Shown here: one piece after another, positions 4,414 to 41,902 of the stretch
Numbering within the stretch: position 1 is the stretch's first letter
How the letters are laid out: each line of letters opens with the position of its first letter
NCBI GenBank assembly: GCA_027858835.1
Contig: JAQIBY010000014.1
Location: 1-43,203, forward strand
Source of the DNA: Bacteroidales bacterium
GTDB taxonomy: Bacteria > Bacteroidota > Bacteroidia > Bacteroidales > ML635J-15
Length of the DNA: 43,203 bases
Direction of reading: 5' to 3'
Position numbers and translations under genes: made by a program
Notes under the pieces: generated by a model
The model's database searches: none
What the model was told of the DNA's origin: nothing
What the model saw: only the letters and a program-made list of their open reading frames with translations

Positions 4414-5430
4414 TTATTTCTTTTCAGTAAGTTTTGCGCGAATTTTCGCTTCGATTTCTTCGCTTAATTCAGGGTTATCCAGCAGTAATGCCTTTACGGC
4501 ATCTCTTCCTTGTCCTAAGCGCGTTTCGTTATATGAAAACCAAGAGCCACTTTTTTGAAGAATTTCCATATCTACGCCAAGATCAATAATTTCCCCAACT
4601 TTAGAAATTCCTTCACCGTACATAATGTCAAATTCAGCACGACGGAATGGTGGTGCGAGTTTATTTTTGACAATTTTCACTTTTGTGCGGTTTCCGGTTA
4701 TGTCGGTAGTATCTTTAATTTGTGCTGAACGGCGAATGTCAACCCGGATAGTGGAATAAAATTTCAGTGCGTTTCCACCAGTTGTTGTTTCGGGATTTCC
4801 AAACATTACGCCAATTTTTTCACGGAGCTGATTAATGAAAATACAGGTTGTATGCGTACGGCTGATATTTGCAGTTAGTTTACGCAGTGCTTGAGACATG
4901 AGACGAGCTTGTAATCCCATTTTGGAATCGCCCATATCGCCTTCAATTTCTGCCTTTGGTGTAAGTGCTGCAACAGAGTCAATCACGATAATATCAATTG
5001 CTCCCGAGCGAATCAAATTATCCGTAATTTCAAGTGCTTGTTCACCATTGTCAGGTTGTGAGATGAAGAGATTTTCAACATCAACACCAAGTTTTTCAGC
5101 ATAAAAACGGTCAAATGCGTGTTCGGCATCAATAATTGCGGCAATTCCACCATTTTTTTGTGCTTCTGCAATGGCATGAATTGCTAATGTGGTTTTACCT
5201 GAAGATTCGGGGCCGTAAATTTCAACAACACGACCGCGAGGATAACCTCCTATGCCAAGTGCATTATCCAACATAATAGAACCTGATGAAATAACCGGAA
5301 TATCTTCTATCACTTTGTCGCCAAGTTTCATGATAGATCCTTTTCCAAAATCTTTTTCAATTTTACCGACAGCTAATTGCATTGCTTTCAGCTTCTCGTT
5401 GCGAATATCCTGTGCATCTTTTTTTGCCAT
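4414..5430 (-). CDS. recA: Recombinase RecA
   Basis: The 338-aa protein is full-length bacterial RecA. Residues 73-80 are the Walker A motif GPESSGKT, followed by a conserved Walker B region ([22 protein letters not shown]) and the L2-loop region with [22 protein letters not shown]. RecA polymerises on single-stranded DNA, drives homologous strand exchange and stimulates LexA-type self-cleavage. The C terminus ends in the usual charged tail (IRAKLTEKK). It lies 29 nt downstream of bcp with no terminator or clear promoter between them, and 3 nt upstream of the TPR lipoprotein. I found no obvious LexA-box palindrome upstream. Confidence 0.99.
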
Positions 5431-5459: not shown

Positions 5460-5924
5460 CTATAAATTTATTTTTTCTAAAATTTGATCAGTATGTGTTT
5501 TTGATTTTACTTGTTTAAAAACTTTTGTAATTACGCCTTTTTCATCAATAACAAATGTTGTGCGCTTGATTCCCATGGATTTTTTTCCGTAAAGATTTTT
5601 TTCACCCCAAACACCGTATGCCTGAATGATTGATTTGTCTTCATCGGCAATTAGTGGAAAGGGCAACTCGTGCTTTTCCGCAAATTTTTCATGAGATGCT
5701 TCACTGTCGGCACTTACTCCTACAACCGCATATCCTTTAGATAACCACATTTCATAATTATCCCTGAAATCGCAGGCTTCTGCAGTGCATCCGGGCGTAT
5801 TGTCTTTTGGATAAAAGTATAGAATCAATTTTTTCCCTGAAAAATCAGATTGTTTTATCAGATTTCCTTTTTGATCTTTTCCTTGAAAATCGGGAGCTTT
5901 ATCTCCGGCTTTTAATGCTTCCAT
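5460..5924 (-). CDS. bcp: Thioredoxin-dependent thiol peroxidase (Bcp/PrxQ-type peroxiredoxin)
   Basis: The 154-aa protein is a typical Bcp/PrxQ peroxiredoxin. The peroxidatic Cys46 lies in DNTPGCTAEACDFRD and the resolving Cys51 is five residues on, which marks the Cys+5 subclass. It reduces hydrogen peroxide and organic hydroperoxides in the cytoplasm using thioredoxin. It is the first gene of a minus-strand cluster with recA and a TPR lipoprotein, pairing oxidant detoxification with DNA repair. A candidate TATATTTG -7 element lies about 30 nt upstream of its ATG. Confidence 0.96.
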   Translation of the reverse strand: MEALKAGDKAPDFQGKDQKGNLIKQSDFSGKKLILYFYPKDNTPGCTAEACDFRDNYEMWLSKGYAVVGVSADSEASHEKFAEKHELPFPLIADEDKSIIQAYGVWGEKNLYGKKSMGIKRTTFVIDEKGVITKVFKQVKSKTHTDQILEKINL

Positions 5925-6090: not shown

Positions 6091-9000
6091 TTGATTTTGA
6101 CAGGATATTTTCGACATATTTTATTTCTATTAAGCCTTGTATTGCTTCTGCTTTACAGCAATGCTAGGGCTCAGACTGTTGAGCTTGATTTAAAGGAGCA
6201 GGCACTTTTGCAAGCTGCTGAAGATAGTCTTGAGGTCGAAAATTATCAATATGCACGTCAGGTTTTCTCACAATTACTCAGTCTTCACAACGATGAGTTG
6301 TATTTTCGCTTTAAATATGCGGTCTGTTTAGTTTATTTAAACAGCGATTTGGATCAGGCAATCGATTATCTGAAGATTGCCGCACAATCAGGGAAGATGC
6401 CCGAAGCATATTATTATCTCGGATTAGCAAATCACTATCGCTATATGTTTGATAAAGCGATAAATAATTATAATAAATTCCTGCAATCCGATTTGTCCTC
6501 CAAGGAAAAAGAAATATTACCGGTTTATCGTCAAATTGCAATGGCAGAAAATGGAAAAATGCTTGTCGAATATGCTTACATGCTCAATGTGATTGATAAT
6601 AAAAATCTGACAATGAGCGACTTTTTCTATTCTTATAATCTTGATAATATGGGCGGTCGGTTTGTGCGTAAACATCCTGATTTTCAAACTCGTTATGATA
6701 GAAAGCGAGAGAAGTATCCCATCATGTTTATTTCTACTGACAATAATTACATTTTATTCAGTAGTTATGGCAAACGCGGAAAGACCGGTAAAGATTTGTA
6801 CGAAGTCAAGCGGCAAGCAGATGGTAACTGGGGAGATGCTGAAATCTTGGGCAAAATTATTAACACAGCGGAAGATGAGGATTTTGCGTATTTGCATCCT
6901 GACGGGAAGCAACTGTTCTTTTGCTCGAAAGGGCATAATAGCATGGGTGGATATGACATTTTTCGAAGTCAATGGAATGAAAAGAAAGGAAACTGGGGAA
7001 TCCCAAGAAACATGGATTTTCCGATAAATTCTCCAATGGATGACATGCTTTATGTCAACGATTCTGCGGATAATTACGCCATTTTTGCTTCTCGTCGCGA
7101 TTCGGAAAATGAGCGTGTTAGCATTTATAAAATCCTAATAAAGAAAGACCCGCAGAAACGTAAGGTTGAAAGCATGCAGGATTTAATCAAAACTTCAAAA
7201 CTTCAAGTGAATTTGCTTGCCGCAGAGCTTGAAACCCGTGATGAGGACACCCCTGACAATCAGTTTGAGACAGATGATGAAACCGTCGATACTACAAATT
7301 TAGTTCTTGCTTTAAATAATAGCAATGATGATGAGATTTCTCCTGAACTCACAGCATATCAAAATCAAAAAACTGAGCTTGATGAAAATCTGCAAGGCTT
7401 AAACACGATTCGTGATGAATTGGCAAGTGAGCAAAATCAATTTAAACAACTTGTTGCGGACGCATGGGCTTCAGAAGACAGCCTATTAGCGCTTGCCGGC
7501 ATGGATGCTGTTAAAGTCTATGATGAAAAGCTATCTTCGTTGAATGCAGATGTTGAGGCTTTTGAATCCATGCTTCAGGAACTTAATTTGCAAAATGATG
7601 AAATTCCTCAAAAAACGGTTCAAACAAAATTAGATGCTCTGGCAGATAATGCAGAGCGCTTGGTTGAAGATTATGAAGATTTTGATTTAATCAGTGCGCT
7701 TGAGGCGGATAACGCAAAAAATCAAGACAAACTTACAAATCTGAAATCTGAAATTGAGGAAATTAAGCAATCATTAAGCAAAGAACGGGAAGAAGGAACG
7801 ATTAAGGATATCACGGATAAGGCAATTGCAAGTCATGAACAGGTTAGAAAAGCACAAAAAAAGCAAATTGCAGAATTGTCAGAATTGGAATATGATTATC
7901 AAAGTTTGCAAGCAAAACAAGATGAGTCTGATCTTGCGCTTAGCTTAATCAAAGAAAATAAAAACAACTTAAAATCTGTCGATGAATCGGTTGAAATCCC
8001 GTTGGCTGATATTCAAGTTGCTGAGCAAAAAGTAACAAGCGCCCGTCTAAATCGCTTAAATAAAATTCAGCGGGAAATACAACAAAAAAACAACAATGAT
8101 TTTGATATTGAGCCATGGTTTGAACAAGCTGAATATCAGGCAGTGATTGAAGAGTCCCTTGCTAAAGTAGGACAAACGAAGACGGATGATTTTCCCGAAT
8201 CTCTTATTGCTGAAAAACCCGACTTGGAAACTGCGCTTGTGGAGCGCAATGCTGCAAGTGAAGAAATAAAATCCATAAAGGAGCAATTGAAAACTGCCGA
8301 TGAGGAGCAAAAGCCAGCCTTATGGAAAGCAATGAATGAACAAATCTCACATTTTGAGGGGAATAATGAAATTATTGAAGCGTATGTTCCCGACTCAGAT
8401 TTGGTTGCTGAAAATACAGATGTTGATCCCGAACAAAGCGATAATTCATTTGATGTCAATCCCGAACCCGAAATAAAATATCCGGATGCTTTCAGGTCAA
8501 ACAATGAACGTGAGCGTTTTGTAAGGGAAACGAAAAATAGTTTGAATGCTGTAAATGAAAAACGAAAGGAAACAGAAACTAACTTAGCGGATTTTAATGA
8601 AACTCAATCGACTCAATTATCACAAGTTAAATTAGTTAATTCACAGGAGGAGCTTGATGCTTTACGGGAATCTCAAAAGGAGATAATTCAACAAGCAATT
8701 GATCTTAACAATTCGGTGTTGGATGAAGAACAAATGCTTAATAAAGTGTTGTCGAATGAGTTGTATCGCTTTACTGAAGGGAGCCCCGGTTTTGATTCAG
8801 TGCTTAAAGGGCAAATTGAAGAGGCCGTTCGCTTAGCAGATGAATCGGAAAGTTTTGAAATATCAGCACGAAATAATGAAAATCCCATTCGAAAAATGAG
8901 TTTCCTTGACAAAGGGAATGAGAAAATTAGGGAAGCAAATCAGGTTTTACGTCAGCTGAGTCAGGATATTGCGGGAGTTGAGATTGCCGCTGAATCGTCC

Positions 9001-11574
9001 GATAAAAGACCGAATACGAACACAATTAAAGCCATTATTAGAGAAACGAATGATGAATTAACCCAGGTTGAAGTGGAAAATCCATTTGTTAATCCGGTTA
9101 ATCAAAGTAATGCGCCTTTAATTGTTGAAAAAGATGAGCAAGCGCGTGAGTATGCATTTCAATTAACCGACTCTTTATTTGGCACACGGGAAGTTGTGCG
9201 TACAAAAATTAAGGAAAATCCGGAATCAGAGGAACTTGCCGAATTACGTCGCCAAGAAGATGCAATCCGCTTTGAAATTGCAGAGGAGGTTACAGATATT
9301 TATAGTCAGGCTCAACCTGTGCTTAATCGTAAAATCCAAAAAAATCAGGAAACAATCGAGTATTTACAAGATATCGGATTAATAAACGAACGACAAATTC
9401 CCGGTTTAGTGGATGATATTGATCCGGCAACCTACTCGGCAAACCCCAACATGACGCCGATTCAAATTCATCGAAACATTACCCGTTTGGCAAATCACAT
9501 GAATGCACAAATGGAGCTATTGCAAACACAGGAAGCCTTGATAAATACCGTACGAACTAATCCTTCTAATCCCATTCCTGGCGCATGGTTCGACTTGGTG
9601 AACAAAATGAATCGTTTGGCAGAACCAAAAATTCCTGTTGACAAAAACTTTACGGACATTCAGCTCGAAACCTATGAAGCAGCAGGCATTGCACTCCCTC
9701 CTTCAGAGCGGAAAACAAAAGAAAAGTTAGAAAACCGAATCGCTAAGTCTGAAGGGAAAATTAATGAAATTCAAGAAGCAATTGCTGAAATACGTAATTC
9801 CGAAACGGTGGATGATCGCAGTTTGAAACAGTTGGAGAAACTTGAAGAAAAACAAACCAAAGAATCTGTCAAACAAACTGAATATAAAGTGGAACGCCAA
9901 GGCTGGTATTTTAATCTTAAGGAAAAATCTGCCGGTGATAATCCGCTTGTCGAAACGGTTTACAGCATTGCAGACAGTTTGAATCAAGTCGCATCAAAAC
10001 AACTTGAAATTATTCAGGAAAATGAGCCGGAACCCGAATTGAAATTTAAACAATTGCAGTATGCGCACGGATTGTTGATTGAAGCCAATCAATTAATACA
10101 AAGTGTTGAAATGCATGAGCGCAATGAAATTTCTGATGATGCTTTAACTGCTTACATTAAAACGTATCGTCCTGAATCCGAGGATGTTTCTGTAGATGAT
10201 GAGCTGATTGCGGAAAACAATGAAACCCAAGATGTTGTCGATGATACAGAAATAGGTGATGCGACAGATGATATTTTTGATGAGCAGGATGAAAATCCGC
10301 AAAATGACACCGATGAATTTGTTGATACAGAACCAGATGACACAGAAGACCAAATTACAGAAGTAATAGATGTTGAAACAGATTTAGACGATGCTTCTGA
10401 AATCGAAAATGCAGAACAAAACACCAATCAAAATGATATTGAGCAGGATGCAGATCAAACAGATTCACAGGATTTAGTTGAAGCAGATGAGGTCGAAGAC
10501 AAAAATCAGGAAAATGTTTCCATTGAACAACAAGATGTTGATCCAGATGATGAACAGGCAATGCAAACGGATAATAATACGGTGATTTCCGATGATGCAT
10601 TGTATTATCGAATTCAAATGGTTGCATATTCGCGTCCCTTAAATGATACAGCATTTCGTGGGATTTCACCGGTGGTGGATGAACAGGTTCCGGGACAAAA
10701 TATTTATCGATATCTTGCCGGGAAATTCTACAATAGCAATTCATGGCGCAATGCTTTGCCTTTGGTGAAAAATCAGGGTTTTACGGATGCTTTCCCTGTT
10801 GCATATTTAAACAGAGAACGCATCAGTCTAGCCAGAGCGAGAGATTTGCGCTATCTTGAAAAAGATTTGCCTGCCGAATTCCGTATTTTAACGGCAACTC
10901 AGGATGATTTCATTGCTCAACAGGACGAAACGGGAGCACAAGTTGATGTGGCGGCTGCAAATCAAATGACAGTTGTTCCCGTTTTGGAAGATAATCAATC
11001 CGCATTTTACAGCATACAGCTTGGAGCCTTTGGCAGAGCAGTAAATCAAGATAATATTCGTGGTGTTTCTGCTGATTTTTATCATCGTGAAGGCAATGGA
11101 TATTACAAATATTACCACGGGAAATACAGAAGTTACGATCAGGCATTGCAAGAAAAAGGCATTGTTAATCGCAGCATTGCGGATGCATTTATTGTCACAT
11201 TCAGCGGAGGTGAGCGTGTGCCGAGAGCAGAAGCAGATGCAGCTATACGAAACGCACCACCTATTGCAGATACCCAGGAGCAAGATGCTGATGTCTCATC
11301 AAATGGAATCCGTTTCCGGATACAAATCGGTGCATTTTCAAATCCGATATCTCCAGAGCAACTACAGAATTACCGTGAAGCATTTACTCCTTATCCGATA
11401 GGAAATATCAATAGGGGTAATATTACAATTTATTTTATTGAAGGATTTGAATCATATGAAACCGCAGGGCAAGCGTTGAAAATCATGGTGCGTCCGCTTG
11501 TTGGCGATGCTTTTGTTACTGCATGGCGCGGCGATACAAAAATTACCATACGAGAAGCCTTGCAAGCTGAGTAG
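6091..11574 (+). CDS. Giant secreted TPR / PD40-like / coiled-coil / triple SPOR-like protein
   Basis: The 1827-aa protein has, in order: a signal peptide ending ARA|Q at about residue 28; TPR-like helices at about 35-150; PD40-like propeller blades at about 205-335 (LHPDGKQLFFCSKG, GGYDIFRSQW); a very long Glu/Lys-rich helical and coiled-coil region at about 410-1360; an Asp/Glu-rich linker at about 1364-1500; and three C-terminal repeats at about 1505, 1639 and 1742 starting YYRIQMVAYS, FYSIQLGAFG and FRIQIGAFS. The repeats resemble SPOR domains, which bind denuded peptidoglycan glycans. TPR plus PD40 recalls T9SS and gliding accessory proteins such as PorE, but the OmpA domain of PorE is absent. 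The only in-frame starts before the signal peptide are TTG (6091 or 6097), since an in-frame stop lies at 6082. It is divergent from bcp. The function is unknown and a periplasmic, wall-associated scaffold is inferred. Confidence 0.85.
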   Translation: MILTGYFRHILFLLSLVLLLLYSNARAQTVELDLKEQALLQAAEDSLEVENYQYARQVFSQLLSLHNDELYFRFKYAVCLVYLNSDLDQAIDYLKIAAQSGKMPEAYYYLGLANHYRYMFDKAINNYNKFLQSDLSSKEKEILPVYRQIAMAENGKMLVEYAYMLNVIDNKNLTMSDFFYSYNLDNMGGRFVRKHPDFQTRYDRKREKYPIMFISTDNNYILFSSYGKRGKTGKDLYEVKRQADGNWGDAEILGKIINTAEDEDFAYLHPDGKQLFFCSKGHNSMGGYDIFRSQWNEKKGNWGIPRNMDFPINSPMDDMLYVNDSADNYAIFASRRDSENERVSIYKILIKKDPQKRKVESMQDLIKTSKLQVNLLAAELETRDEDTPDNQFETDDETVDTTNLVLALNNSNDDEISPELTAYQNQKTELDENLQGLNTIRDELASEQNQFKQLVADAWASEDSLLALAGMDAVKVYDEKLSSLNADVEAFESMLQELNLQNDEIPQKTVQTKLDALADNAERLVEDYEDFDLISALEADNAKNQDKLTNLKSEIEEIKQSLSKEREEGTIKDITDKAIASHEQVRKAQKKQIAELSELEYDYQSLQAKQDESDLALSLIKENKNNLKSVDESVEIPLADIQVAEQKVTSARLNRLNKIQREIQQKNNNDFDIEPWFEQAEYQAVIEESLAKVGQTKTDDFPESLIAEKPDLETALVERNAASEEIKSIKEQLKTADEEQKPALWKAMNEQISHFEGNNEIIEAYVPDSDLVAENTDVDPEQSDNSFDVNPEPEIKYPDAFRSNNERERFVRETKNSLNAVNEKRKETETNLADFNETQSTQLSQVKLVNSQEELDALRESQKEIIQQAIDLNNSVLDEEQMLNKVLSNELYRFTEGSPGFDSVLKGQIEEAVRLADESESFEISARNNENPIRKMSFLDKGNEKIREANQVLRQLSQDIAGVEIAAESSDKRPNTNTIKAIIRETNDELTQVEVENPFVNPVNQSNAPLIVEKDEQAREYAFQLTDSLFGTREVVRTKIKENPESEELAELRRQEDAIRFEIAEEVTDIYSQAQPVLNRKIQKNQETIEYLQDIGLINERQIPGLVDDIDPATYSANPNMTPIQIHRNITRLANHMNAQMELLQTQEALINTVRTNPSNPIPGAWFDLVNKMNRLAEPKIPVDKNFTDIQLETYEAAGIALPPSERKTKEKLENRIAKSEGKINEIQEAIAEIRNSETVDDRSLKQLEKLEEKQTKESVKQTEYKVERQGWYFNLKEKSAGDNPLVETVYSIADSLNQVASKQLEIIQENEPEPELKFKQLQYAHGLLIEANQLIQSVEMHERNEISDDALTAYIKTYRPESEDVSVDDELIAENNETQDVVDDTEIGDATDDIFDEQDENPQNDTDEFVDTEPDDTEDQITEVIDVETDLDDASEIENAEQNTNQNDIEQDADQTDSQDLVEADEVEDKNQENVSIEQQDVDPDDEQAMQTDNNTVISDDALYYRIQMVAYSRPLNDTAFRGISPVVDEQVPGQNIYRYLAGKFYNSNSWRNALPLVKNQGFTDAFPVAYLNRERISLARARDLRYLEKDLPAEFRILTATQDDFIAQQDETGAQVDVAAANQMTVVPVLEDNQSAFYSIQLGAFGRAVNQDNIRGVSADFYHREGNGYYKYYHGKYRSYDQALQEKGIVNRSIADAFIVTFSGGERVPRAEADAAIRNAPPIADTQEQDADVSSNGIRFRIQIGAFSNPISPEQLQNYREAFTPYPIGNINRGNITIYFIEGFESYETAGQALKIMVRPLVGDAFVTAWRGDTKITIREALQAE

Positions 11575-11921
11575 GTGATTTCACTACTTGAAAAACCCCA
11601 TGTTTTATACAAAAAGCTAATTTAATTTGAGTTTTTAATTTGTTTTATAACTGCGCATGTGCTTTTTTGCTGGTTTGAATGGTTGTTTTAAGTGGTGTGT
11701 GAGTGTGCTTCTCTGTTTTTCTTTAAGTAGGTAGTGAGATTAGTATAAGTGTTTTGGGGATAATTTGTGATTTTATTCGTTTATAACCGTTAGTAACGGC
11801 TATTGCCCCATTTTACAATGGCTGTGTGATTTATACGAAAAAAACAGTTCTGCATTTAATGATTGACTAATTCGTAATGTAATCCAATCCGGGAGTTAGC
11901 AATGATAATGTGGCAGCATTT

Positions 11922-11965
11922 TGAGTTTCTTTTTGAAATGACTATTTCAAAATATTCGAAACTCA
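11922..11965. repeat. Long two-part inverted repeat upstream of the two-component genes
   Basis: The outer arms TGAGTTTC (11922-11929) and GAAACTCA (11958-11965) enclose inner arms TTTTGAAAT (11931-11939) and ATTTCAAAA (11944-11952) around a 4-nt loop. A 1-nt versus 5-nt internal bulge separates the two stems. This gives 17 perfect pairs within 44 nt. It lies upstream of the candidate response regulator promoter, so it is either part of an RNA transcribed from farther upstream or a DNA element. Confidence 0.6.
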
Positions 11966-12037
11966 GGAAGTGCACTTTTGTTCAGGTTCTTGGTTTAACT
12001 TAATAATTACTTAACTATAGTTCAAGATTATTTTCAT

Positions 12038-12045
12038 TAACTTTG
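12038..12045 (+). promoter_or_regulatory. Candidate -7 promoter element for the two-component operon
   Basis: TAACTTTG matches TAnnTTTG and lies 23 nt before the ATG at 12069, a spacing similar to the other candidate promoters in this window. No exact -33 TTTG is seen. Confidence 0.45.
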
Positions 12046-12068
12046 GAGATTATCAATTAGTATGAAAC

Positions 12069-12758
12069 ATGTTTAATGCAGAAGATTATACGATACTCCT
12101 TGTGGATGATGAAGCGGACATCATTGAGTTTTTAAGTTATAATTTACAAAAGGAAGGATATAAAATTCATAGTTGCAGTAATGGTAATCAGGCAATTTCT
12201 ATGGCAATTAAAGTAAAGCCTGATTTAATTTTACTTGATATTATGATGCCGATGAAAGATGGTATTGAAACTTGTCAAGAACTACGAGAAGTAAAAGGCT
12301 TGGAAAATGTATTAATTATGTTTTTAACTGCCCGTGCTGAAGATTATTCGCAGATTGCAGGCTTTGATGCCGGTGCTGATGACTATGTATCAAAACCCAT
12401 TAAGCCCAAAGTTTTACAGAAACGAATTAAGGCAGTATTGAAGCGTGCAAAAAAAATGCAAGAGGAAAATGAGCTGGTACAATATGGGGGATTCATACTC
12501 GACCATGATAGACACCTTGTCGTTATTGATGATGTTGAAATTAATTTGCCACGAAAAGAATTTAAACTCTTAAGTTTGCTTGCATCAAAACCATCAAAAG
12601 TTTTTTCCCGCGATGAAATATACAACCATGTATGGGGTGAGGATGTTATTGTCGGAGATCGAACCATTGACGTTCATATTCGCAAGATTCGTGAAAAAAT
12701 CGGAGACAATTATATCATAACGCTTAAAGGTGTTGGATATCGCTTAAATATTGATTAA
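12069..12758 (+). CDS. OmpR/PhoB-family response regulator
   Basis: The 229-aa protein has an N-terminal receiver domain with acidic pocket Asp13/Asp14, phospho-acceptor Asp57 (LLDIMMP), Thr87 and Lys109 (SKPI). A C-terminal winged-helix DNA-binding domain ends with DRTIDVHIRKIREKIG and a GVGYRL wing. It acts as a phosphorylation-controlled transcription factor. The partner histidine kinase starts 3 nt downstream. The signal and targets are not evident. The pair resembles PhoB/PhoR in size and order, but no phosphate-transport genes are nearby, so I do not assign that name. Confidence 0.95.
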   Translation: MFNAEDYTILLVDDEADIIEFLSYNLQKEGYKIHSCSNGNQAISMAIKVKPDLILLDIMMPMKDGIETCQELREVKGLENVLIMFLTARAEDYSQIAGFDAGADDYVSKPIKPKVLQKRIKAVLKRAKKMQEENELVQYGGFILDHDRHLVVIDDVEINLPRKEFKLLSLLASKPSKVFSRDEIYNHVWGEDVIVGDRTIDVHIRKIREKIGDNYIITLKGVGYRLNID

Positions 12759-12761
12759 TTC

Positions 12762-13808
12762 ATGCAAAATTATTCTGCAAATACCTTGGCATTTCGTGTT
12801 AGCTTAATTCTTGCAATTGTGCTAGTTGGCTTAGTTGTTGTTTTGAAATACAGTATGGGTTTATCAATCGAATGGACATTTATTGTAATTGTCACAGCTT
12901 GCTTTTTTATTATTTCCTTTTTTATCCTTAGAAACATACTTTATAATTTCATTTATCGTCGCATTCGCCTTATTTACAAATCCATTAGCAATATAAAAGA
13001 AGATGATAAAACCAAGCAAGAACCCTTTAATATGCACACTGATATGCTTCAACAAGTTGATCATGATGTGACAGCATGGGCTGAGAAAAGCAAAAAAGAA
13101 ATTGAGCAATGGAAACACATGCTTCAATATCGAAAGGAATTTGTTGGCAATGTGTCGCATGAACTCAAAACTCCGATTTTTAATATTCAGGGATATACAC
13201 TTACTCTCTTGGAAGGCGGCTTGGAAGATAAGCGAATTAACACCCGATATCTGTCCAAAATTGAAAAAAACATTAACCGTATGATTTCCATTGTCAGAGA
13301 TCTTGAGGCAATTTCTAAACTGGAGCATGGTGAATTGAGTTTGCGAATTATTGAGTTTAATCCCATTAATCTGGCACAAGATGTCATTGAAAATCTGGAA
13401 GAACGTGCTAATGAAAAGGATATAACTCTGGAAATTGTCCCGCATTATGAAAAAGCGCATCTTGTTGAGGCAGATCCTGAATATATTCGACAAGTTTTTA
13501 CGAATTTAATTCTGAACAGCATCAATTACGGGAAAGAAAAAGGACATACAAAAATTGAATTTTTTGATATGGATGATAATTTACTTATTGAAGTTACCGA
13601 TAACGGGATTGGAATTGCTGAAGAAAATATTCTACGAGTTTTTGAGCGGTTTTACCGTGTCGATAAAAGTCGTTCTACACAATCGGGTGGGACAGGACTC
13701 GGTTTGGCAATTGTAAAACACATTATCGAAGCTCATAAACAAACCATCAACGTTCGTAGTCGTATCGGAATTGGTACCACACTGGCGTTTACGCTTAGAA
13801 AGCATTAA
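12762..13808 (+). CDS. Membrane sensor histidine kinase
   Basis: The 348-aa protein has two N-terminal transmembrane helices (about residues 10-30 and 38-62) with almost no periplasmic loop between them. A HisKA domain follows with phospho-acceptor His133 in FVGNVSHELKTP. The HATPase_c domain has an N-box (NLILNSINYG), DNGIGI, and the G-box GGTGLGLAIVKHI. It should autophosphorylate and pass the phosphate to Asp57 of the response regulator encoded 3 nt upstream. The lack of a periplasmic sensor domain suggests sensing within the membrane or through a partner protein. The short linker between membrane and HisKA is highly charged. Confidence 0.95.
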   Translation: MQNYSANTLAFRVSLILAIVLVGLVVVLKYSMGLSIEWTFIVIVTACFFIISFFILRNILYNFIYRRIRLIYKSISNIKEDDKTKQEPFNMHTDMLQQVDHDVTAWAEKSKKEIEQWKHMLQYRKEFVGNVSHELKTPIFNIQGYTLTLLEGGLEDKRINTRYLSKIEKNINRMISIVRDLEAISKLEHGELSLRIIEFNPINLAQDVIENLEERANEKDITLEIVPHYEKAHLVEADPEYIRQVFTNLILNSINYGKEKGHTKIEFFDMDDNLLIEVTDNGIGIAEENILRVFERFYRVDKSRSTQSGGTGLGLAIVKHIIEAHKQTINVRSRIGIGTTLAFTLRKH

Positions 13809-13890
13809 AAAGAGGGTTGATTTTTAAAGACTAAAATTAATGGCACTTTTTTTGAATGATTTATTTAATATATTCGTAAAAATATGCATC

Positions 13891-14802
13891 ATGAAAAAAC
13901 TTGTATTGCTATTATCACTTGTCTTAATTGCAGGAGCTGCACTTCCCCAAGAAGTTGAATCACATAAACCCATGGGAAGATGGTGCTATAATATATTAAC
14001 AAAACGTATAGAAGGGCCTGAGAAAGATAAGCGCAGAATGAAAAAAGGAGTTCGCATCATCAGCAGAAAACATATTTCATCAAATCAGGCATACAAATTA
14101 ACCCTACTTTTTAATGAAGATGAATATCGCTTAGGGTTTGTAAAAGGACTTTATCCAAGCATTACAGATAAATCGAATGCAATTATAATGCTCGATGGGT
14201 TTGAAAAATTCTCTTATCAGACAATTCTATGGGAATACATTCAGGCTGAAAATCGAAAATTTGGAGTTGAGGAAACTGACATTACTTCTTATCAGGAATT
14301 TCTTGAAATGAGAGACAGGAAACGAGACAGACAATATGATGAAGATGATGATAAAGATCTTATCATTGAGGAAGAGGAAGTTGAAGAGAATGCAATAAGC
14401 GAACATACTGAAGAAGAGACCACTTCTGAAACAACAGAAACTGAACTTGAGGAAAATCAGATTGAAGCGAATACCAACTCGACCATTTTCCCGGATGCAG
14501 CAGCATACACTGGCAAAAACAAAGGCTGTGATAATTATTTAAGTGAGAAACCATTTTTGGCATTTGCGAATACCGTTGCACAATTTGATAATGATAAGGA
14601 AAAAGCAATTATTTGCATGGAATACACAGAAAAATATTGCTTTACGACATCGCAAGTCATGAAACTTGGAGTTATTATTGAAAATGAAGCCTCACGCTAT
14701 GTGTTTTTCAAAACAGCTCAGGATAAAGTTTACGATAAAGACAATTTTCGTTATGTGAAACAGCTGTTGACTAATGAACGGTTTATTGAAGAGCTCGATT
14801 AA
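13891..14802 (+). CDS. Secreted DUF4476-domain protein
   Basis: The 303-aa protein begins with a clear signal peptide (MKKLVLLLSLVLIAGAALPQ). I prefer this ATG to an in-frame one 17 codons upstream, which would put a non-signal extension before it. A basic N-terminal domain (about 25-140) is followed by a Glu/Thr-rich acidic linker (about 150-205). The C-terminal domain of about 90 aa has the pattern of DUF4476: FANTVAQFDNDKEKAI, then CFTTSQVMKLGVIIENEASRYVFFKTAQDKVYD. The function of DUF4476 is unknown. The gene follows the two-component pair on the same strand 82 nt on, and could be a target or a co-transcribed partner. A terminator follows. Confidence 0.75.
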   Translation: MKKLVLLLSLVLIAGAALPQEVESHKPMGRWCYNILTKRIEGPEKDKRRMKKGVRIISRKHISSNQAYKLTLLFNEDEYRLGFVKGLYPSITDKSNAIIMLDGFEKFSYQTILWEYIQAENRKFGVEETDITSYQEFLEMRDRKRDRQYDEDDDKDLIIEEEEVEENAISEHTEEETTSETTETELEENQIEANTNSTIFPDAAAYTGKNKGCDNYLSEKPFLAFANTVAQFDNDKEKAIICMEYTEKYCFTTSQVMKLGVIIENEASRYVFFKTAQDKVYDKDNFRYVKQLLTNERFIEELD

Positions 14803-14822
14803 TTAGTGTCTTACAATAATGT

Positions 14823-14850
14823 CCAAGATCTCCATTTTGGCTTTTTTATT
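14823..14850 (+). terminator. Terminator after the DUF4476 gene
   Basis: CCAAGAT (14823-14829) and ATTTTGG (14834-14840) form a 7-bp stem with one G-U pair and a 4-nt loop, followed by CTTTTTTATT. It lies 20 nt after the stop codon. Confidence 0.65.
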
Positions 14851-14876
14851 ATAGTTTTTTCAATCGACAAAAACGG

Positions 14877-14905
14877 CGATAAAAATCAATTATTGATTTT
14901 TATCG
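14877..14905. repeat. 29-bp near-perfect palindrome upstream of corA
   Basis: The arms CGATAAAAATCAA (14877-14889) and TTGATTTTTATCG (14893-14905) match perfectly across 13 bp with a 3-nt centre (TTA). It ends 21 bp before the candidate -7 element of corA. There is no T run on the plus-strand side, and the previous gene already has its own terminator. An operator site is therefore the more likely reading, although a hairpin in a read-through transcript is possible. Confidence 0.7.
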
Positions 14906-14926
14906 AACAACAGAGAGTCTTTTGTG

Positions 14927-14934
14927 TATATTTG
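14927..14934 (+). promoter_or_regulatory. Candidate -7 promoter element for corA
   Basis: TATATTTG matches TAnnTTTG. It lies 14 nt before the ATG at 14949 and downstream of the alternative TTG at 14922, which argues for the ATG as the real start. Confidence 0.5.
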
Positions 14935-14948
14935 ATAAAAACTTTACC

Positions 14949-16013
14949 ATGTCAAGATATTTTACCAAACGAACAATAAACCGCGGGAAAGCACCAGGCT
15001 CATTAGTTTTTATCGGAGAGAGAAAATCAGATGAAACAATTTTGAATCTCATACAATATAACGAGAAAGAGATTGACGACTTTATTATTGCTGAATCTGA
15101 CCTTGAGTCCATTCCCGAAAAAATCGACACCGAGAAAACTTCATGGCTGAATTTGGATGCACTGCACAATCTGGAACTGATGAAGTTTATCAAATCGCAT
15201 TTTCATATTCATCCATTGCTAATGGAGGATATTCTTAACACGGGTCAACGTCCTAAAGTTGAGGATTTTGACAATTGCAGCTTAATCAGCATGAAAATGT
15301 TGCAACTTGAAGGAGATGAAATCGCTGTTGAGCAAGTAAGTTTTGTGCTGAGTGAAGGTTTGCTCTTGAGTTTTCAGGAACGTCCCGGCGATTTATTTGA
15401 TCTGGTACGAAAGCGCTTGGTTGAAGCAAAAGGTCGTATCCGCACAGCAGGTGCAGATTATTTGTGTTACGCATTGATGGATACTTTGGTTGACCATTAT
15501 TTTGATATCATCGGGCAAGTTGGAGATAAGGTAGAAGACCTAGAAGATGTGATTCTAAATCATCAAGATCAGAATATCTCAACTACAATTTACAAATATA
15601 AACGGGAATTTCGTGTTTTACACAAAGCCATTTTGCCGGTTCGGGATATGCTTCTAAAAATACTAAAATCCGAAGACAATCAATTCAAACAAGAAAACAG
15701 GCAATATCTTCGTGATTTACTCGACTTGTGTCAACAAGCTCTTGAATCAGTTGAGAGTTATCGGGAGCAATTATCGGATTATCACAACACATACAATACC
15801 ATCGTAAACAACCGCATGAATGATGTGATGAAAGTGCTTACTGTTTTTGCATCAATATTTATTCCCTTAACCTTCATTGCCGGTGTTTACGGAACCAACT
15901 TTGAAAACATCCCAGAATTAACTTATAAATACGCCTACTTTATTATGTGGGCCTTTTTTGTAGTTATAATTGTTGGCATGGTTATTTACTTCAAGCGAAA
16001 TAAATGGCTGTAA
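14949..16013 (+). CDS. corA: CorA-type magnesium/cobalt transporter
   Basis: The 354-aa protein has the CorA layout: a large cytoplasmic alpha/beta N-terminal domain, a long stalk helix (about 195-290), then two C-terminal transmembrane helices (MKVLTVFASIFIPLTFIAGVYG and YFIMWAFFVVIIVGMVIYF). It ends in a short basic tail, KRNKWL. CorA forms a homopentamer that imports Mg2+. The signature after the first helix reads YGTNFENIPEL, so the usual Gly-Met-Asn selectivity motif is Gly315-Thr316-Asn317 here. The start is set at ATG 14949 because a promoter-like TATATTTG overlaps the codons of the longer version. It converges on thiL with a 3-nt gap. Confidence 0.93.
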   Translation: MSRYFTKRTINRGKAPGSLVFIGERKSDETILNLIQYNEKEIDDFIIAESDLESIPEKIDTEKTSWLNLDALHNLELMKFIKSHFHIHPLLMEDILNTGQRPKVEDFDNCSLISMKMLQLEGDEIAVEQVSFVLSEGLLLSFQERPGDLFDLVRKRLVEAKGRIRTAGADYLCYALMDTLVDHYFDIIGQVGDKVEDLEDVILNHQDQNISTTIYKYKREFRVLHKAILPVRDMLLKILKSEDNQFKQENRQYLRDLLDLCQQALESVESYREQLSDYHNTYNTIVNNRMNDVMKVLTVFASIFIPLTFIAGVYGTNFENIPELTYKYAYFIMWAFFVVIIVGMVIYFKRNKWL

Positions 16014-16016
16014 GCA

Positions 16017-17045
16017 TTATCCTTTTATCGGATTCCATCCTTGCGCTTCAATTTTAACATCTTCTCCGTTTTCCGGAACGAGATAATGTCCTGATTCGGC
16101 ATGTGTCATATGTCCAATGATAGAAACCCCAGGTATTGCAACCAATTTTTCGTGTTGAGTTACCGGAACAGTAAATAACAGTTCATAATCTTCCCCACCA
16201 TTCATTGCGGCAATAATTGGGTCAAGATGAATTTCTTCAGCGCATAAGCGGGCTTCATAACGTATTGGAATTTTCTCCTGATAGATGCGACAACCCAAAT
16301 TAGATTGATTTGAAATGTGCAATATTTCTGACGACAAACCATCCGAAACATCAATCATAGCACTCGGAGTAACTTCGTGCTCTTTTAAAAGAGAAACAAT
16401 ATCACGTCTGGCTACCGGTTTTAACTGGCGCTGTAAAACATATTCGTAATTAGTCAATTTTGGTTGAATTTCCGGATCTTTCATATAGATTGCTTTTTCC
16501 CTTTCAAGAATTTGCAATCCGAGATAAGCTCCACCTAAATCACCTGAAACGCAGATTAAATCAGTTTCTTTAGCAGAATTTCGCTTAATTGCCTTGCCCT
16601 TTTCAACCGAGCCGATGGCAGTTATACTGATAACAAGTCCTGTTAATGAGCTGGTGGTATCACCGCCAACCATATCAACTTGATGCTCACGACAAGCTTC
16701 TTTCATCCCTTCATACAATTCTTCAATTGCTTCAACCGTGAATTTTGAAGAGATTGCTATCGAAACAACCACTTGTTCCGGCTTTCCGTTCATGGCATAA
16801 ATGTCGCTCAAATTAACGATAATGGATTTATAACCAAGATGTTTCAGCGGAGTGTAAACCAAATTGAAATGTATGCCTTCCATAAGCAAATCAGTACTCA
16901 CTAAACTTTCCTTATTGTCATAATCAATAATGGCGGCATCGTCACCGATTCCATAAACCGTACTTTCATTTTGTGTTTTTATATTTTCTGTCAGATGACG
17001 AATCAGACCAAATTCTCCGAGCGCTTCGATGCGTGTTTTTTTCAT
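16017..17045 (-). CDS. thiL: Thiamine-monophosphate kinase
   Basis: The 342-aa protein matches ThiL, which phosphorylates thiamine monophosphate to the active cofactor thiamine diphosphate. Diagnostic segments are GIGDDAAIID near residue 32, STDLLMEGIHF, VNLSDIYAMNGKPE, DMVGGDTTSS (metal and ATP binding in the PurM/ThiL fold), SGDLGGAYLGL, AMIDVSDGLSSEI and AMNGGEDYELLF. No other thiamine genes are in the window. It is a single minus-strand gene, convergent with corA and divergent from the secreted repeat protein at 17222. A TACTTTTG promoter-like element lies 20 nt upstream. Confidence 0.97.
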   Translation of the reverse strand: MKKTRIEALGEFGLIRHLTENIKTQNESTVYGIGDDAAIIDYDNKESLVSTDLLMEGIHFNLVYTPLKHLGYKSIIVNLSDIYAMNGKPEQVVVSIAISSKFTVEAIEELYEGMKEACREHQVDMVGGDTTSSLTGLVISITAIGSVEKGKAIKRNSAKETDLICVSGDLGGAYLGLQILEREKAIYMKDPEIQPKLTNYEYVLQRQLKPVARRDIVSLLKEHEVTPSAMIDVSDGLSSEILHISNQSNLGCRIYQEKIPIRYEARLCAEEIHLDPIIAAMNGGEDYELLFTVPVTQHEKLVAIPGVSIIGHMTHAESGHYLVPENGEDVKIEAQGWNPIKG

Positions 17046-17065
17046 AACTGCTTATCTTTAATTTG

Positions 17066-17073
17066 CAAAAGTA
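17066..17073 (-). promoter_or_regulatory. Candidate -7 promoter element for thiL
   Basis: On the minus strand this reads TACTTTTG, matching TAnnTTTG, 20 nt before the thiL ATG. No -33 element is seen at about 19 bp. Confidence 0.4.
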
Positions 17074-17197
17074 AGGAATGTTTGGCAAAGTCTTTGTTTC
17101 AATTGTGATTGATGTCCGGAAAATATTTCTGAAAAATGCTGTGATACGCCTTGTTTCTGTATTTTGAAATAAAAACCCGGAATATGCGTTTTTTTTA

Positions 17198-17205
17198 TAA
17201 ATTTG
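17198..17205 (+). promoter_or_regulatory. Candidate -7 promoter element for the secreted repeat protein and queG
   Basis: TAAATTTG matches TAnnTTTG and lies 16 nt before the ATG at 17222. No -33 TTTG is seen at the preferred spacing. Confidence 0.45.
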
Positions 17206-17221
17206 TTCAAAGCTTAAAACT

Positions 17222-18307
17222 ATGCGATTTATACTGCTCATTATTGCCCTTCTGGGTGTGAATTTCCTGAATGCCCAGCAATTGGCCTTATATAATGACT
17301 ATCTAGATAACGTTCAGATTTTTGATGGCGGGAAATTTCAGGAACTTGAACATCTTCCTTTGACATCCTATCAAATTGGAAATAATGCCATCGGATATGA
17401 AGACAATGCAAGCAGTTTTAAGGTGTACTATAATCATTACTCATTCAAAGTGAGCGAATTTGTTTCAGATTATACCGTAACTGATAATCTTATTGTTTTT
17501 AATTTGAATAATCAGCTTAAAGTGTTTGATAACGGGGATACAAAAACACTTGCAATTCATGCCGGTGAGTATCGTGTAGGAGATGATTTGATTGCGTTTT
17601 ATGACAAACAAAAATTCCTGCTCAATGTCTATTACCAAGGCGAAATAATTCCCTTGGATGATGTTTTGGCATCTGAAGCGGAACCGGAATTTATTGTGGG
17701 AGAAAACACCTTGGTTTATAAAGATGCACAAGGATATTTACACATTTTTTACCGTGGTGAATTGTTTGAATTGTTATATGCTGAGCGTGCTAAAGATTAT
17801 AAAGCGGGTCGTGATATTGTTGCCTTTGTGGAAACTCCCGTTGATAATTTTCAGGCTTTTTACGGCGGAGAATTTATCCAACTTGAAGATTTTGAGCCAA
17901 AATCCTTTAAAATGGGTGATGGATTTGTAGCATATATTGATTCCAACGATTATCTGAAACTTTTTGATGGTACCGAAACTCAAACCATTTCTTTCGATGC
18001 GCCTGAAGAATATGATGTCACAGATGAATTATTGGTTTTTCATGTACAAAATTACTTCAAAGTGCATTGGCGCGGAAAAACTTATACTCTGGAAAGCCAT
18101 ATTCCCGAATCTTATAAAATGGATCAAAATATTCTAGCTTATATTGATGAGCAGGGATACCTGAAAGTATTTGACAGAGGAACGAAACAGACACTAAGTT
18201 ACGAAGCTATTAATGAGTACGATTGTCACGGAAACACCGTTTTTTATAATTATGGAATCAACTCCAATGATATTTATTACGACGGTGAAGTCTATTCCGG
18301 AGATTAA
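17222..18307 (+). CDS. Secreted protein of about ten degenerate beta-rich repeats, function unknown
   Basis: The 361-aa protein has a short signal peptide (MRFILLIIALLGVNFLNAQ). The rest is about ten copies of a degenerate repeat of roughly 34-38 aa. Each copy runs from a Y/F-x-V/M-G/T-D start, through a hydrophobic strand such as NILAYIDEQGYLKVF, to a short aromatic/Gly strand (FDRG, YYQGE, FYGGE) and an acidic turn. The spacing suggests a beta-propeller or beta-solenoid, though I cannot assign a named family. It is probably periplasmic or outer surface. The queG ATG follows its stop by 2 nt, so the two are probably co-transcribed despite unrelated functions. Confidence 0.8.
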   Translation: MRFILLIIALLGVNFLNAQQLALYNDYLDNVQIFDGGKFQELEHLPLTSYQIGNNAIGYEDNASSFKVYYNHYSFKVSEFVSDYTVTDNLIVFNLNNQLKVFDNGDTKTLAIHAGEYRVGDDLIAFYDKQKFLLNVYYQGEIIPLDDVLASEAEPEFIVGENTLVYKDAQGYLHIFYRGELFELLYAERAKDYKAGRDIVAFVETPVDNFQAFYGGEFIQLEDFEPKSFKMGDGFVAYIDSNDYLKLFDGTETQTISFDAPEEYDVTDELLVFHVQNYFKVHWRGKTYTLESHIPESYKMDQNILAYIDEQGYLKVFDRGTKQTLSYEAINEYDCHGNTVFYNYGINSNDIYYDGEVYSGD

Positions 18308-33200: not shown

Positions 33201-33364
33201 ATTCCGGAGACCTCGGGTCGTTGAAGCGTTATAAAGACGATGCAAAAGAGGTGTATTCAGGACAAGAATGCGGACTTAATATCGAAAACTTTAATGACAT
33301 TAAAGTTGGTGATATGGTTGAAGCATACGAAGAGTTCGAAGTCAAAAAAACGCTGGATAACTAA
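30296..33364 (+). CDS. infB: Translation initiation factor IF-2
   Basis: The 1022-aa protein is IF-2. An N-terminal IF2N domain (residues 1-55) is followed by a very long, highly charged and probably disordered Lys/Glu/Pro linker (about 70-440), including tandem KAEPKK-like units at about 250-275. A second IF2N-type domain appears at about 443-500 ([23 protein letters not shown]). The GTPase follows with G1 GHVDHGKT (528-535), DTPGHEAF and NKVDKP, then domains II to IV. IF-2 places initiator tRNA on the 30S subunit. Its stop overlaps the start of the M23 peptidase (TAATG). Confidence 0.99.
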
Positions 33365-34608
33365 TGAAGCGAAATCATTGGATAATTTTATTAATCATCA
33401 TCGGGATTGCTGTCTTGATGATGATTTTTATTTTCCCCATAAATAAAAATGGATCTGTAGATGAAATTGAAATTGCTGTGGCAGATTCAGTCCCCGAACC
33501 GATATTAAAATACGGGATGCCGGTCGATTCGTTTTTAATTGTATATGATACCATCAAATCCGGGTCTAGTTTATCCGATCTTTTACGCCCGTATCAAGTA
33601 AGCCTGCTGACAATTGATAAAATCGGACGCATGTCAACCGATAGTTTTCGGGTTGACAGAATTCGTGCAGGACAACCAATTGCATTGTTTTGTAAAAAAG
33701 ATACAAGCATTGGGTTACAGGCAGATTTTATGGTGTATGAAAATAACCATATTGATTATACGATTTACGATTTCCGCGACAGCATCATCATAAGTCGAGG
33801 TCAAAAACCGGTTGAATATCAAGAAAAATCCGTAAAAGGCAGCATCGAATCTTCTTTATGGATGGCATTAAAAAATCAGAATGCAAACACATCTTTGGCG
33901 CTTGAAATGTCAGAGATTTTCGGCTGGGTAATTGATTTTTTCGGCATTCAAAAACACGATGAATTTCGCATAATATATGAAGTGGCCGTTGTTGAAGGGA
34001 ATCCCATTTTTGTCAACAAGATAAAAGCTGGAAAGATGGTTCACATGGGGCGCGAATATTGGGCAATACCCTTTACGGTCGATTCCGTTGAAAGTTTTTA
34101 TGAACCAGACGGAGCATCATTGCGCAGAACATTTTTAAAAGCTCCGCTTAAATACAATCGCATTTCGAGTCGATACACAAATAGTCGGTTTCATCCCATT
34201 TTACACAAAAACACGCCCCATTTGGCAGTTGATTATTCTGCACCCACGGGAACACCAATCCGTACCATAGGCGAAGGAGTTGTCACTTTAAGACGTTATG
34301 GCAGAGGCGCTGGGAATTATGTAAAAGTGAAACACAACTCAGTTTACACAACAGTTTATATGCATATGTCCCGTTACGGGGAATTTCATGTCGGAGAGCG
34401 AGTAAAACAAGGTGATATCATCGGATATGTCGGCAGCACCGGCTTATCTACCGGGCCCCATCTCCATTTTGAGGTGCATAAAAACGGACAGAAAATTGAC
34501 CCGCTGAAATTAGAAAGTCCACCCGCCGAACCTATCCCCGATAGCCTTATGGACGAGTTTATTAAAGTCTGCGACCATTGGGTAGAAAAAATTGAAGGGG
34601 TTGAATAA
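33364..34608 (+). CDS. M23 family LytM-type metalloendopeptidase
   Basis: The 414-aa protein has an N-terminal membrane anchor (WIILLIIIGIAVLMMIFIFPI). An OapA/LysM-like region follows at about 50-100 (DTIKSGSSLSDLLRPYQVS). The C-terminal LytM peptidase domain is at about 265-380. The zinc ligands are visible: His286 and Asp290 in HLAVD, and His368 in HLHFE, with His366 as the partner catalytic His. Such enzymes cut peptide cross-links in peptidoglycan for growth and division. The ATG overlaps the infB stop codon by 1 nt, so it is probably translated by coupling. It converges on the DUF5916 gene with a 7-nt gap. Confidence 0.95.
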   Translation: MKRNHWIILLIIIGIAVLMMIFIFPINKNGSVDEIEIAVADSVPEPILKYGMPVDSFLIVYDTIKSGSSLSDLLRPYQVSLLTIDKIGRMSTDSFRVDRIRAGQPIALFCKKDTSIGLQADFMVYENNHIDYTIYDFRDSIIISRGQKPVEYQEKSVKGSIESSLWMALKNQNANTSLALEMSEIFGWVIDFFGIQKHDEFRIIYEVAVVEGNPIFVNKIKAGKMVHMGREYWAIPFTVDSVESFYEPDGASLRRTFLKAPLKYNRISSRYTNSRFHPILHKNTPHLAVDYSAPTGTPIRTIGEGVVTLRRYGRGAGNYVKVKHNSVYTTVYMHMSRYGEFHVGERVKQGDIIGYVGSTGLSTGPHLHFEVHKNGQKIDPLKLESPPAEPIPDSLMDEFIKVCDHWVEKIEGVE

Positions 34609-38518: not shown

Positions 38519-38875
38519 AATTTATCGTTTTCGTTCAGGACAAAAGTACAATCCCAATTTTGTGTGATTATGAAGTAAATGTTACCTTATTGTTAAGCAT
38601 TTTAATGTTGACAGGTACTGCGGATTCTTGTTTTTATTTTCATTGATAAAATATGCAGTTTTTCATCCGGATTAAATGTTAACAACTTCTTTATTTTGGA
38701 TAAAAAACTTCTGCTAAAATAATTTAAGCACAACTTAAAATGCAGAGATACAGGATGGTATAAGTGCGTTGTGGAATTGACTTAATTCACAATCTATCGT
38801 TTAAAAAAAGCTCTAGCCTACAACTAAATTCTTAGTAAATTGCCGGATAAAACGAATAAACAAAAAAGCCTTATC
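38519..38875. other. 357-nt divergent intergenic region
   Basis: This separates the CarboxypepD_reg gene (minus) from the Ig-repeat protein (plus). It holds a candidate minus-strand promoter element (38541-38548) and an imperfect dyad at 38769-38792, TTGTGGAATT with AATTCACAA, where one G is bulged. I see no gene and no clear TAnnTTTG box for the plus-strand gene. Confidence 0.55.
38541..38548 (-). promoter_or_regulatory. Candidate -7 promoter element for the CarboxypepD_reg gene
   Basis: On the minus strand this reads TACTTTTG, matching TAnnTTTG, 22 nt before the ATG at 38518. No -33 element is seen at the usual spacing. Confidence 0.4.
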
Positions 38876-41800: not shown

Positions 41801-41902
41801 GGAATGCGTAATATTGATTTAAATGCATTGCAATCCGGTTTATATATTATTAATTTGCAAACAAAAAGTCGGAGTATAAATTATCGCTTGATCAAAGAAT
41901 AA
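38876..41902 (+). CDS. T9SS-secreted protein with tandem Ig-like domains
   Basis: The 1008-aa protein starts with a signal peptide (MKLHFLTIAIAFLLPLTILAQ). I chose this ATG over a TTG 12 codons upstream. About eight immunoglobulin-like domains of roughly 85 aa follow, each with a Cys near the start, a central W (YQWYHN, FAWYKD, YQWFDN) and a YYCxVSNxCG-type strand. Three shorter beta-sandwich modules then begin with DLGxD-type strands. The C terminus (about 931-1008) is a type A T9SS sorting domain with SIYPNPAKE and SGLYIINLQT. The protein should cross the outer membrane by type IX secretion and act as a surface or adhesive protein. The ftsX ATG lies only 4 nt after its stop. Confidence 0.93.
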   Translation: MKLHFLTIAIAFLLPLTILAQAPQITTQPGNKLFCVDSYGALQTEATGAVPISYQWYHNELPITGATSESLVFDPVELTDEGEYYCEVSNAEGTETSDTAQVLVFTGVPQVATLSSGGDFCEGSDQILSVTVTENPTNFAWYKDDEFIAGAYGPSISLNDLSIADAGVYYCELNNACGTIQTDDIAVNFVETVSITSQPVGQTVCESDDAIYTIEADGSYLEYQWFDNGLEIPGEINAQFTVENVQTDNSSSYHCVVSNMCNSVQSNAVGMTVHTYPLVTAHPNDASECLGESVILTSTASGTPTINGQWFVNGQAVSDSVFSTLTVDFETTDTLFVYHAFTNGCGTVNSDSAALVSILAPMITVQPLDTAGCLGDDASLRVKVVGTEPFNYQWQLNGADVNGSTYSGANDFELFISGVNEGHEGTYTCIISNECGQIISNPAELDVVLPPNIVSQPNEITICEGDTANFEMILQGTEPFEFAWMNPGSDDVINTTQNYTINGVQPEDDNDYYCVVSNVCADVSTDIVSLNVKTLPEFVLQPEDLDACHGDSVALEVSVTGTSPMDLLWFRNEGAITGAEDSVLIFDPAETLETGYFFCVAMNECGIAESDEVSVNIGTAPAITWQPSDQSLCENETLTLYSSASGENVFYQWFNNDEEIPGQNDTILLIPAVDDVMAGGFYFQAYNGCASVNSDVVTVDIDPAPEFDLGEDQHLCDGESLILSTDVLAQSYSWNEGLSTAASYEVNSTGEYTLAAIGDNGCTGYDTVYIEFHPYHTVILGDDLSNCGSLTLDVGEGAYSYQWNTSSTEPSIEVTESGTYYCTTEGDAFGCISSDTVEIEILTVPVIDLGNDHTIARDSSVTLSVDEEFLSYYWSNGTNLHEAVYTGDYLGAGTHVAWVMITAENGCATSDTIQIIVLQGESVGQIRKGEMVSIYPNPAKETVTFEFDLQESLVKFDVLDVNGRVVLSVNENQYKGMRNIDLNALQSGLYIINLQTKSRSINYRLIKE

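Follow-up and report, generated by a model that had tools for sequence, protein, structure and literature searches.

The window analyzed here, 43,203 nucleotides of contig JAQIBY010000014.1 from a Bacteroidales genome assembly (GCA_027858835.1), encodes a giant protein in which a TPR and propeller head is followed by a long helical arm, an acidic linker and three C-terminal SPOR repeats (Table 1). This order of parts was first read from the sequence alone, and it is upheld by Pfam and NCBIfam searches, AlphaFold2 models and fold comparison. The frame has no internal stop codons and there are two candidate TTG starts. Close relatives of the protein (L031–L036 and L042) also seem, judging from their sequences, to use a TTG start, and in 36 of 94 head-bearing frames GTG or TTG codons alone, with no ATG, lie ahead of the signal-peptide core. 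Residue Q28 is almost invariant in a 60-row alignment. No strongly hydrophobic segment is present beyond the signal peptide in 74 of the 75 frames that combine the head with SPOR repeats, and together with the likely signal peptide this suggests a soluble periplasmic protein.

Table 1. Features of the giant gene, two neighboring genes, and copies of a large upstream protein at related loci.
Feature	Coordinates	Strand	Residues	Basis or remark
Whole gene	6091..11574	+	1,827 aa	TTG start at 6091, or TTG at 6097
Likely N-terminal signal peptide	6091..6174	+	1–28	Inspection: hydrophobic core, then AxA-Q, no Cys
TPR domain, helices	6190..6564	+	34–158	AlphaFold2; fold and profile matches to TPR proteins
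Small PD40-type propeller	6571..7164	+	161–358	Pfam PD40; PorE/CHU_0125 propeller match; AlphaFold2 strands
Helical arm	7174..10164	+	362–1358	AlphaFold2 helices, uneven confidence
Acidic disordered linker	10171..10590	+	1361–1500	pLDDT ~32; D+E 0.40, K+R 0.01
SPOR repeat 1	10600..10842	+	1504–1584	Family profile, AlphaFold2, CwlC SPOR fold match
SPOR repeat 2	11002..11238	+	1638–1716	Family profile and AlphaFold2 model only
SPOR repeat 3	11308..11562	+	1740–1824	Pfam, family profile, AlphaFold2, RlpA SPOR fold match
bcp-type peroxiredoxin	5460..5924	-		Divergent neighbor, common to other family loci
recA	4414..5430	-		Neighbor common to other family loci
Large upstream protein copy	L093:2-4123			
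Large upstream protein copy	L046:3596-8080			
Large upstream protein copy	L121:3-4289			

Head, arm and C-terminal repeats

Two AlphaFold2 models cover residues 1–1020 and 1000–1827 (input alignments of 60 and 54 rows; mean pLDDT 77.8 and 71.8, respectively), both with low whole-model pTM (0.49 and 0.34). In the first of these, TPR-like helices at residues 34–158 and strands at 161–358 form blocks with pLDDT of about 91–98. The single-sequence Pfam match to TPR is weak (E 0.21, below cut-off); a profile search that starts from the head alignment retrieves TPR proteins of solved structure (best E 4.2e-37), the modeled TPR part aligns with solved TPR domains at Z 15–17, and the matches listed by Foldseek and VIA for the long head model are mostly TPR. 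Pfam PD40 matches residues 253–292 (E 2.8e-7, above the curated cut-off), and the strand order of the model would give about four blades. The first-pass annotation singled out residues 200–340 for a structure check; the propeller is present and longer than this, its strands spanning residues 161–358. Overall, the head resembles protein-docking modules.

Beyond the head, residues 362–1357 are modeled as mostly helical, with uneven confidence. A helical region of about 950 residues was the original estimate, and helical it is, although nearer 1,000 residues long and broken into helices of which the longest are 53–55 residues. Drawn out into a single straight helix, ~1,000 residues would extend to ~150 nm, far in excess of the ~30 nm width of the periplasm, and a single fiber is therefore less likely. 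Head-to-SPOR spacing in the 75 frames varies ~19-fold, from 127 to 2,458 residues (median 1,320), and on this range a fixed-length ruler or a single long fiber was rejected. Two early ideas are thus abandoned, the first being a fiber spanning a long distance in the periplasm, given this range and helices of no more than ~55 residues, and the second a septal ruler, given the same range and the seven fetched head-only frames without arm or SPOR. The arm is a variable spacer, and the model makes a flexible or folded-back spacer more likely than a single fiber. Residues 1361–1498 are predicted to be disordered. The D+E fraction in the 100 residues before the first SPOR repeat (0.43) is the highest among the 75 frames (median 0.15); the window protein is an outlier, and the acidic linker is peculiar to it and was rejected as a family feature.

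Pfam finds a single SPOR match in the window protein, at residues 1741–1797 (E 8.9e-6, above the curated cut-off), and none in repeats 1 and 2. All three repeats are recovered by an iterated family SPOR profile built from them (Table 1), but this was trained on these same proteins, which gives weight to independent support for SPOR identity. In the C-terminal model the repeats are alpha-beta units with block pLDDT of about 83–96. Alignment with VIA-align matches repeat 1 to the CwlC SPOR domain (1x60; Z 6.7, rmsd 2.7 over 74) and repeat 3 to that of RlpA (6i09; Z 7.4, rmsd 2.1 over 71), and also retrieves DamX (2lfv; Z 5.8) and DedD (6ztg; Z 5.4), all within a Z range (5.4–7.4) that is common for unrelated folds too. 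Foldseek returns the RlpA and CwlC SPOR domains with probability 0.99 and weak E-values (0.16 and 0.33), and for the long C-terminal model the matches listed by Foldseek and VIA are mostly helical or ferredoxin-like; no separate fold match is listed for repeat 2. When the SPOR-region alignment is compared with solved chains, the CwlC SPOR domain (E 2e-4) alone is matched at E ≤ 1. Structure prediction thus gives a SPOR-type fold at the C-terminus, with repeats 1 and 3 matching solved SPOR domains, in line with the first description of these repeats as SPOR-like.

A hydrophobic-Gln-hydrophobic signature in the first strand is present in 190 of the 194 repeats of the 75 proteins and absent from four, and the window protein has the beta-1 glutamine in each of its three repeats. 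In RlpA, Q270 touches the glycan and is the single residue at this interface described as highly conserved across SPOR domains; the SPOR domain of RlpA recognizes denuded glycan and no longer binds when peptide stems are present (PMC6895207). A tree of the repeats from 12 multi-repeat long forms groups all second repeats (support 0.96), third with fourth repeats (0.93), and 11 of the 12 first repeats (0.93), with the first repeat of L047 outside. This grouping by position indicates that the repeats are old and have been kept.

Size classes and spread of the family

We defined family frames as those with a head match at E < 1e-40 and SPOR in one frame, and after de-duplication there are 75, including that of the window, three of which touch a contig end. 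These relatives share both ends of the protein. One SPOR repeat is present in ten frames, two in 17, three in 43, four in four and five in one, and there are two length groups, with 14 frames of 600–1,100 aa (1–3 SPOR) and 61 of 1,400–3,200 aa (2–5 SPOR). A further group has the head only (472–509 aa), and all seven such frames that were fetched (L158–L164, from genomes of the order) lack SPOR and lie directly before nfeD-floA. The combination was not recognized as a named family at the outset, and no Pfam or NCBIfam family spans the whole protein. Literature searches found no protein joining a SPOR domain with PD40, and no such protein was seen in the literature on SPOR domains in Bacteroidetes/Bacteroidota, as judged by title and the start of the abstract, or among the matches listed in broader searches.

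Searches with the whole protein match all 31 of 31 genomes at E ≤ 0.001, the window's own included, and much of this represents PorE-type propellers. The own genome has 20 such matches, the giant itself among them, and these are mostly PorE/CHU_0125-type propeller stretches in frames of 450–884 aa. The whole protein gave no match in a first contig scan. With the SPOR alignment as query against named contigs, at least 493 of 595 stretches encode a relative, of which the best 80 were retained. Among the matches listed, the named relatives are mostly Bacteroidales and Flavobacteriales, including Crocinitomicaceae, Fluviicola and Taishania pollutisoli. A small number of record titles, such as an Actinomyces MAG, look mislabeled. 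The head profile matches 93 of 149 genomes of the order at E ≤ 1e-40, a count that still includes paralogous propellers. Among the matches listed for this sample, 21 genomes carry a head frame of 1,200 aa or longer, 21 have one of 600–1,062 aa (in two of these, G026 and G143, the profile is matched only from position 103–104 onward, and the frame of G030 is at a contig end), one has a 565-aa frame (G079), and 24 have a head-profile frame of 471–509 aa. Only 3 of 296 genomes in a phylum sample match at E ≤ 1e-60, the own genome being one of the three, so at this threshold the family is not phylum-wide.

In a tree of the heads (95 tips, with one distant paralogue as outgroup) nearly all long forms fall into one clade with support of 0.83, or 0.95 if L174 (781 aa) is included, and the seven SPOR-less forms are nested beside one-SPOR forms. 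There are exceptions of two types. First, L114 (1,446 aa, five SPOR) is outside the long clade, and second, L167 (952 aa) and L173 (1,062 aa) are inside it; the clade also takes in interrupted frames and frames truncated at contig ends, none of which shows SPOR. Rooting on the paralogue makes the short forms basal, whereas rooting by species order, with Flavobacteriales outside Bacteroidales, makes the long form older, and with the root uncertain, gain and loss of the SPOR arm are not separable. The head is the constant part of the family, whereas the length of the arm and the number of repeats can be adjusted. The existence of head-only forms implies that some lineages can dispense with arm and SPOR repeats and that the head has a function by itself. 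We note that in one genome (G009, locus L041) the gene is split between 8901-14570, a 1,872-aa head part, and 14779-17928, 1,050 aa with four SPOR repeats, from either a frame break or an assembly error.

Probable wall binding and candidate partners

Denuded glycan is the most likely ligand of the SPOR repeats, and we consider it somewhat better than an even chance that the giant protein is a soluble periplasmic scaffold, held by these repeats mainly at division sites, whose head docks an envelope partner. Once exported, the repeats would attach to peptidoglycan strands that have lost their peptides, a form concentrated at sites of daughter-cell separation. The presence of several repeats would add avidity and keep the protein at division sites or young poles, and the head, at the far end of a flexible arm, would dock the partner, recruiting it to the wall or tethering it there. 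Wall binding, localization and a partner for the head are what we infer for the giant protein, and a septal position would follow by analogy from SPOR biology. The seven fetched head-only forms indicate that, for the family as a whole, the core function is something other than wall binding through SPOR. With the SPOR-domain proteins RlpA, CwlC, DamX, DedD and FtsN the protein shares the SPOR fold and the conserved beta-1 glutamine, but it differs from them in its multiple SPOR repeats, TPR-propeller head and giant arm. There is no enzyme domain match in Pfam. The FtsN, DamX and DedD class has an N-terminal inner-membrane anchor; the N-terminus here looks, by inspection, like a cleavable signal peptide. 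The head-only relatives have the same head and neither SPOR nor the long arm.

The similarity to PorE raises an alternative, a component of T9SS or gliding, in which the head would join the outer-membrane secretion complex and SPOR, replacing OmpA, would anchor it to the wall. The propeller matches the NCBIfam models for PorE (83 bits, E 1.5e-23) and CHU_0125 (84.8 bits, E 4.8e-24), and these significant matches together with the SPOR C-terminus agree with the first-pass view of a PorE-like protein with SPOR in the OmpA place. PorE (PG1058) and CHU_0125 likewise have TPR, then a PD40 propeller, then a wall-binding kind of C-terminus. However, the scores are far below the model cut-offs (600 for PorE and 620 for CHU_0125), Pfam finds neither OmpA nor CRD in the window protein, and in their stead are a long helical arm and several SPOR repeats; the region after residue 358, where the PorE/CHU_0125 type has its CRD, is predicted to be helical. 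The propeller is also smaller than that reported for PG1058. The own genome encodes a separate CHU_0125/PorE-type OmpA protein (L004, itself below the family cut-offs), and no T9SS protein was present among the recurrent neighbor proteins run through Pfam. The own genome does have SprA, but so do 140 of the 149 genomes of the order, and co-occurrence is thus uninformative as a positive sign. Four genomes without a SprA match retain the family, two with a 632–636-aa SPOR form (G026 and G143) and two with the head-only form (G077 and G105), showing for the short and head-only forms that there is no dependence on T9SS. Membership of the PorE/T9SS group was rejected on the scores, the missing OmpA and CRD, and these SprA-less forms, and we regard a T9SS role as unlikely.

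The gene neighborhood raises another alternative. Context was counted for 96 non-redundant head-bearing frames, scoring only loci with enough flanking sequence. Downstream, on the same strand and inside 4.5 kb, clpS is present at 41 of 77 loci, nfeD at 21 of 75 and floA at 20 of 71; upstream are plsY (20 of 89), bcp (11 of 89), recA (10 of 82) and a protein of 1,370–1,530 aa (23 of 82, often cut by the locus end). The latter, to the eye beta-rich and often accompanied by plsY, is directly before the head gene, and it has no Pfam match (two copies) or NCBIfam match (one copy). No arrangement is general, and many loci have none of these genes. In the window, bcp, recA, a TPR gene and a dpp5-like gene are upstream, as in L031, L032 and L060, and in the short forms L172 and L177 bcp, recA and dpp5 are upstream and clpS-nfeD-floA downstream; given this common arrangement, the long and the short forms would seem to be orthologous.

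A partnership with the NfeD-FloA flotillin system, in which the head would work with membrane microdomains and SPOR would tie these to sites of wall growth, would account for the downstream genes, including those of all seven fetched SPOR-less forms. FloA is, however, generally placed at the cytoplasmic face of the membrane, and it is not evident how it would touch a periplasmic head directly. In the own genome clpS-nfeD-floA is on a different contig from the giant gene, and conserved order can reflect mere ancestry, given that bcp, recA and plsY recur too. Loss of flotillins in Bacillus subtilis alters peptidoglycan synthesis and MreB dynamics (PMC7360373), but on balance the odds are well against a flotillin partner. 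A general structural spacer that, like Pal or OmpA, would connect outer membrane and wall all around the cell is improbable: CHU_0125, with the same type of head, is needed for outer-membrane integrity (PMC5891637), but no lipid anchor or barrel is seen in the giant protein, the arm length varies ~19-fold, and the RlpA SPOR domain requires glycan without peptide stems (PMC6895207). Equally speculative, and with little chance of being correct, is a Bacteroidota-specific organizer that couples NfeD-FloA domains to fresh septal wall, in which the head would serve as an unchanging receptor and the SPOR arm would be a module whose reach can be adjusted and which head-only lineages have lost or never acquired.

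Little seems to have been written on how Bacteroidota build and split the division wall and connect other envelope machines with it. The family includes a homologue in the named strain Taishania pollutisoli CZZ-1 (L121), a natural series of lengths and relatives with the head alone, and these make the role of the wall-binding part directly testable. Elsewhere in the window there are two frames of 812 and 1,020 aa (34619-37054, reverse strand, and 38840-41899, forward strand) with no NCBIfam match at 1e-15, and a LuxE-type acyl-protein synthetase gene near recA (188-1168, reverse). A reverse-strand gene at 26382-27932 matches the lyso-ornithine lipid synthetase OlsH (432.6 bits; cut-off 620), and a murein endopeptidase-like gene (33364-34605, forward; ShyC/MepM models, below cut-offs) directly follows nusA and infB.
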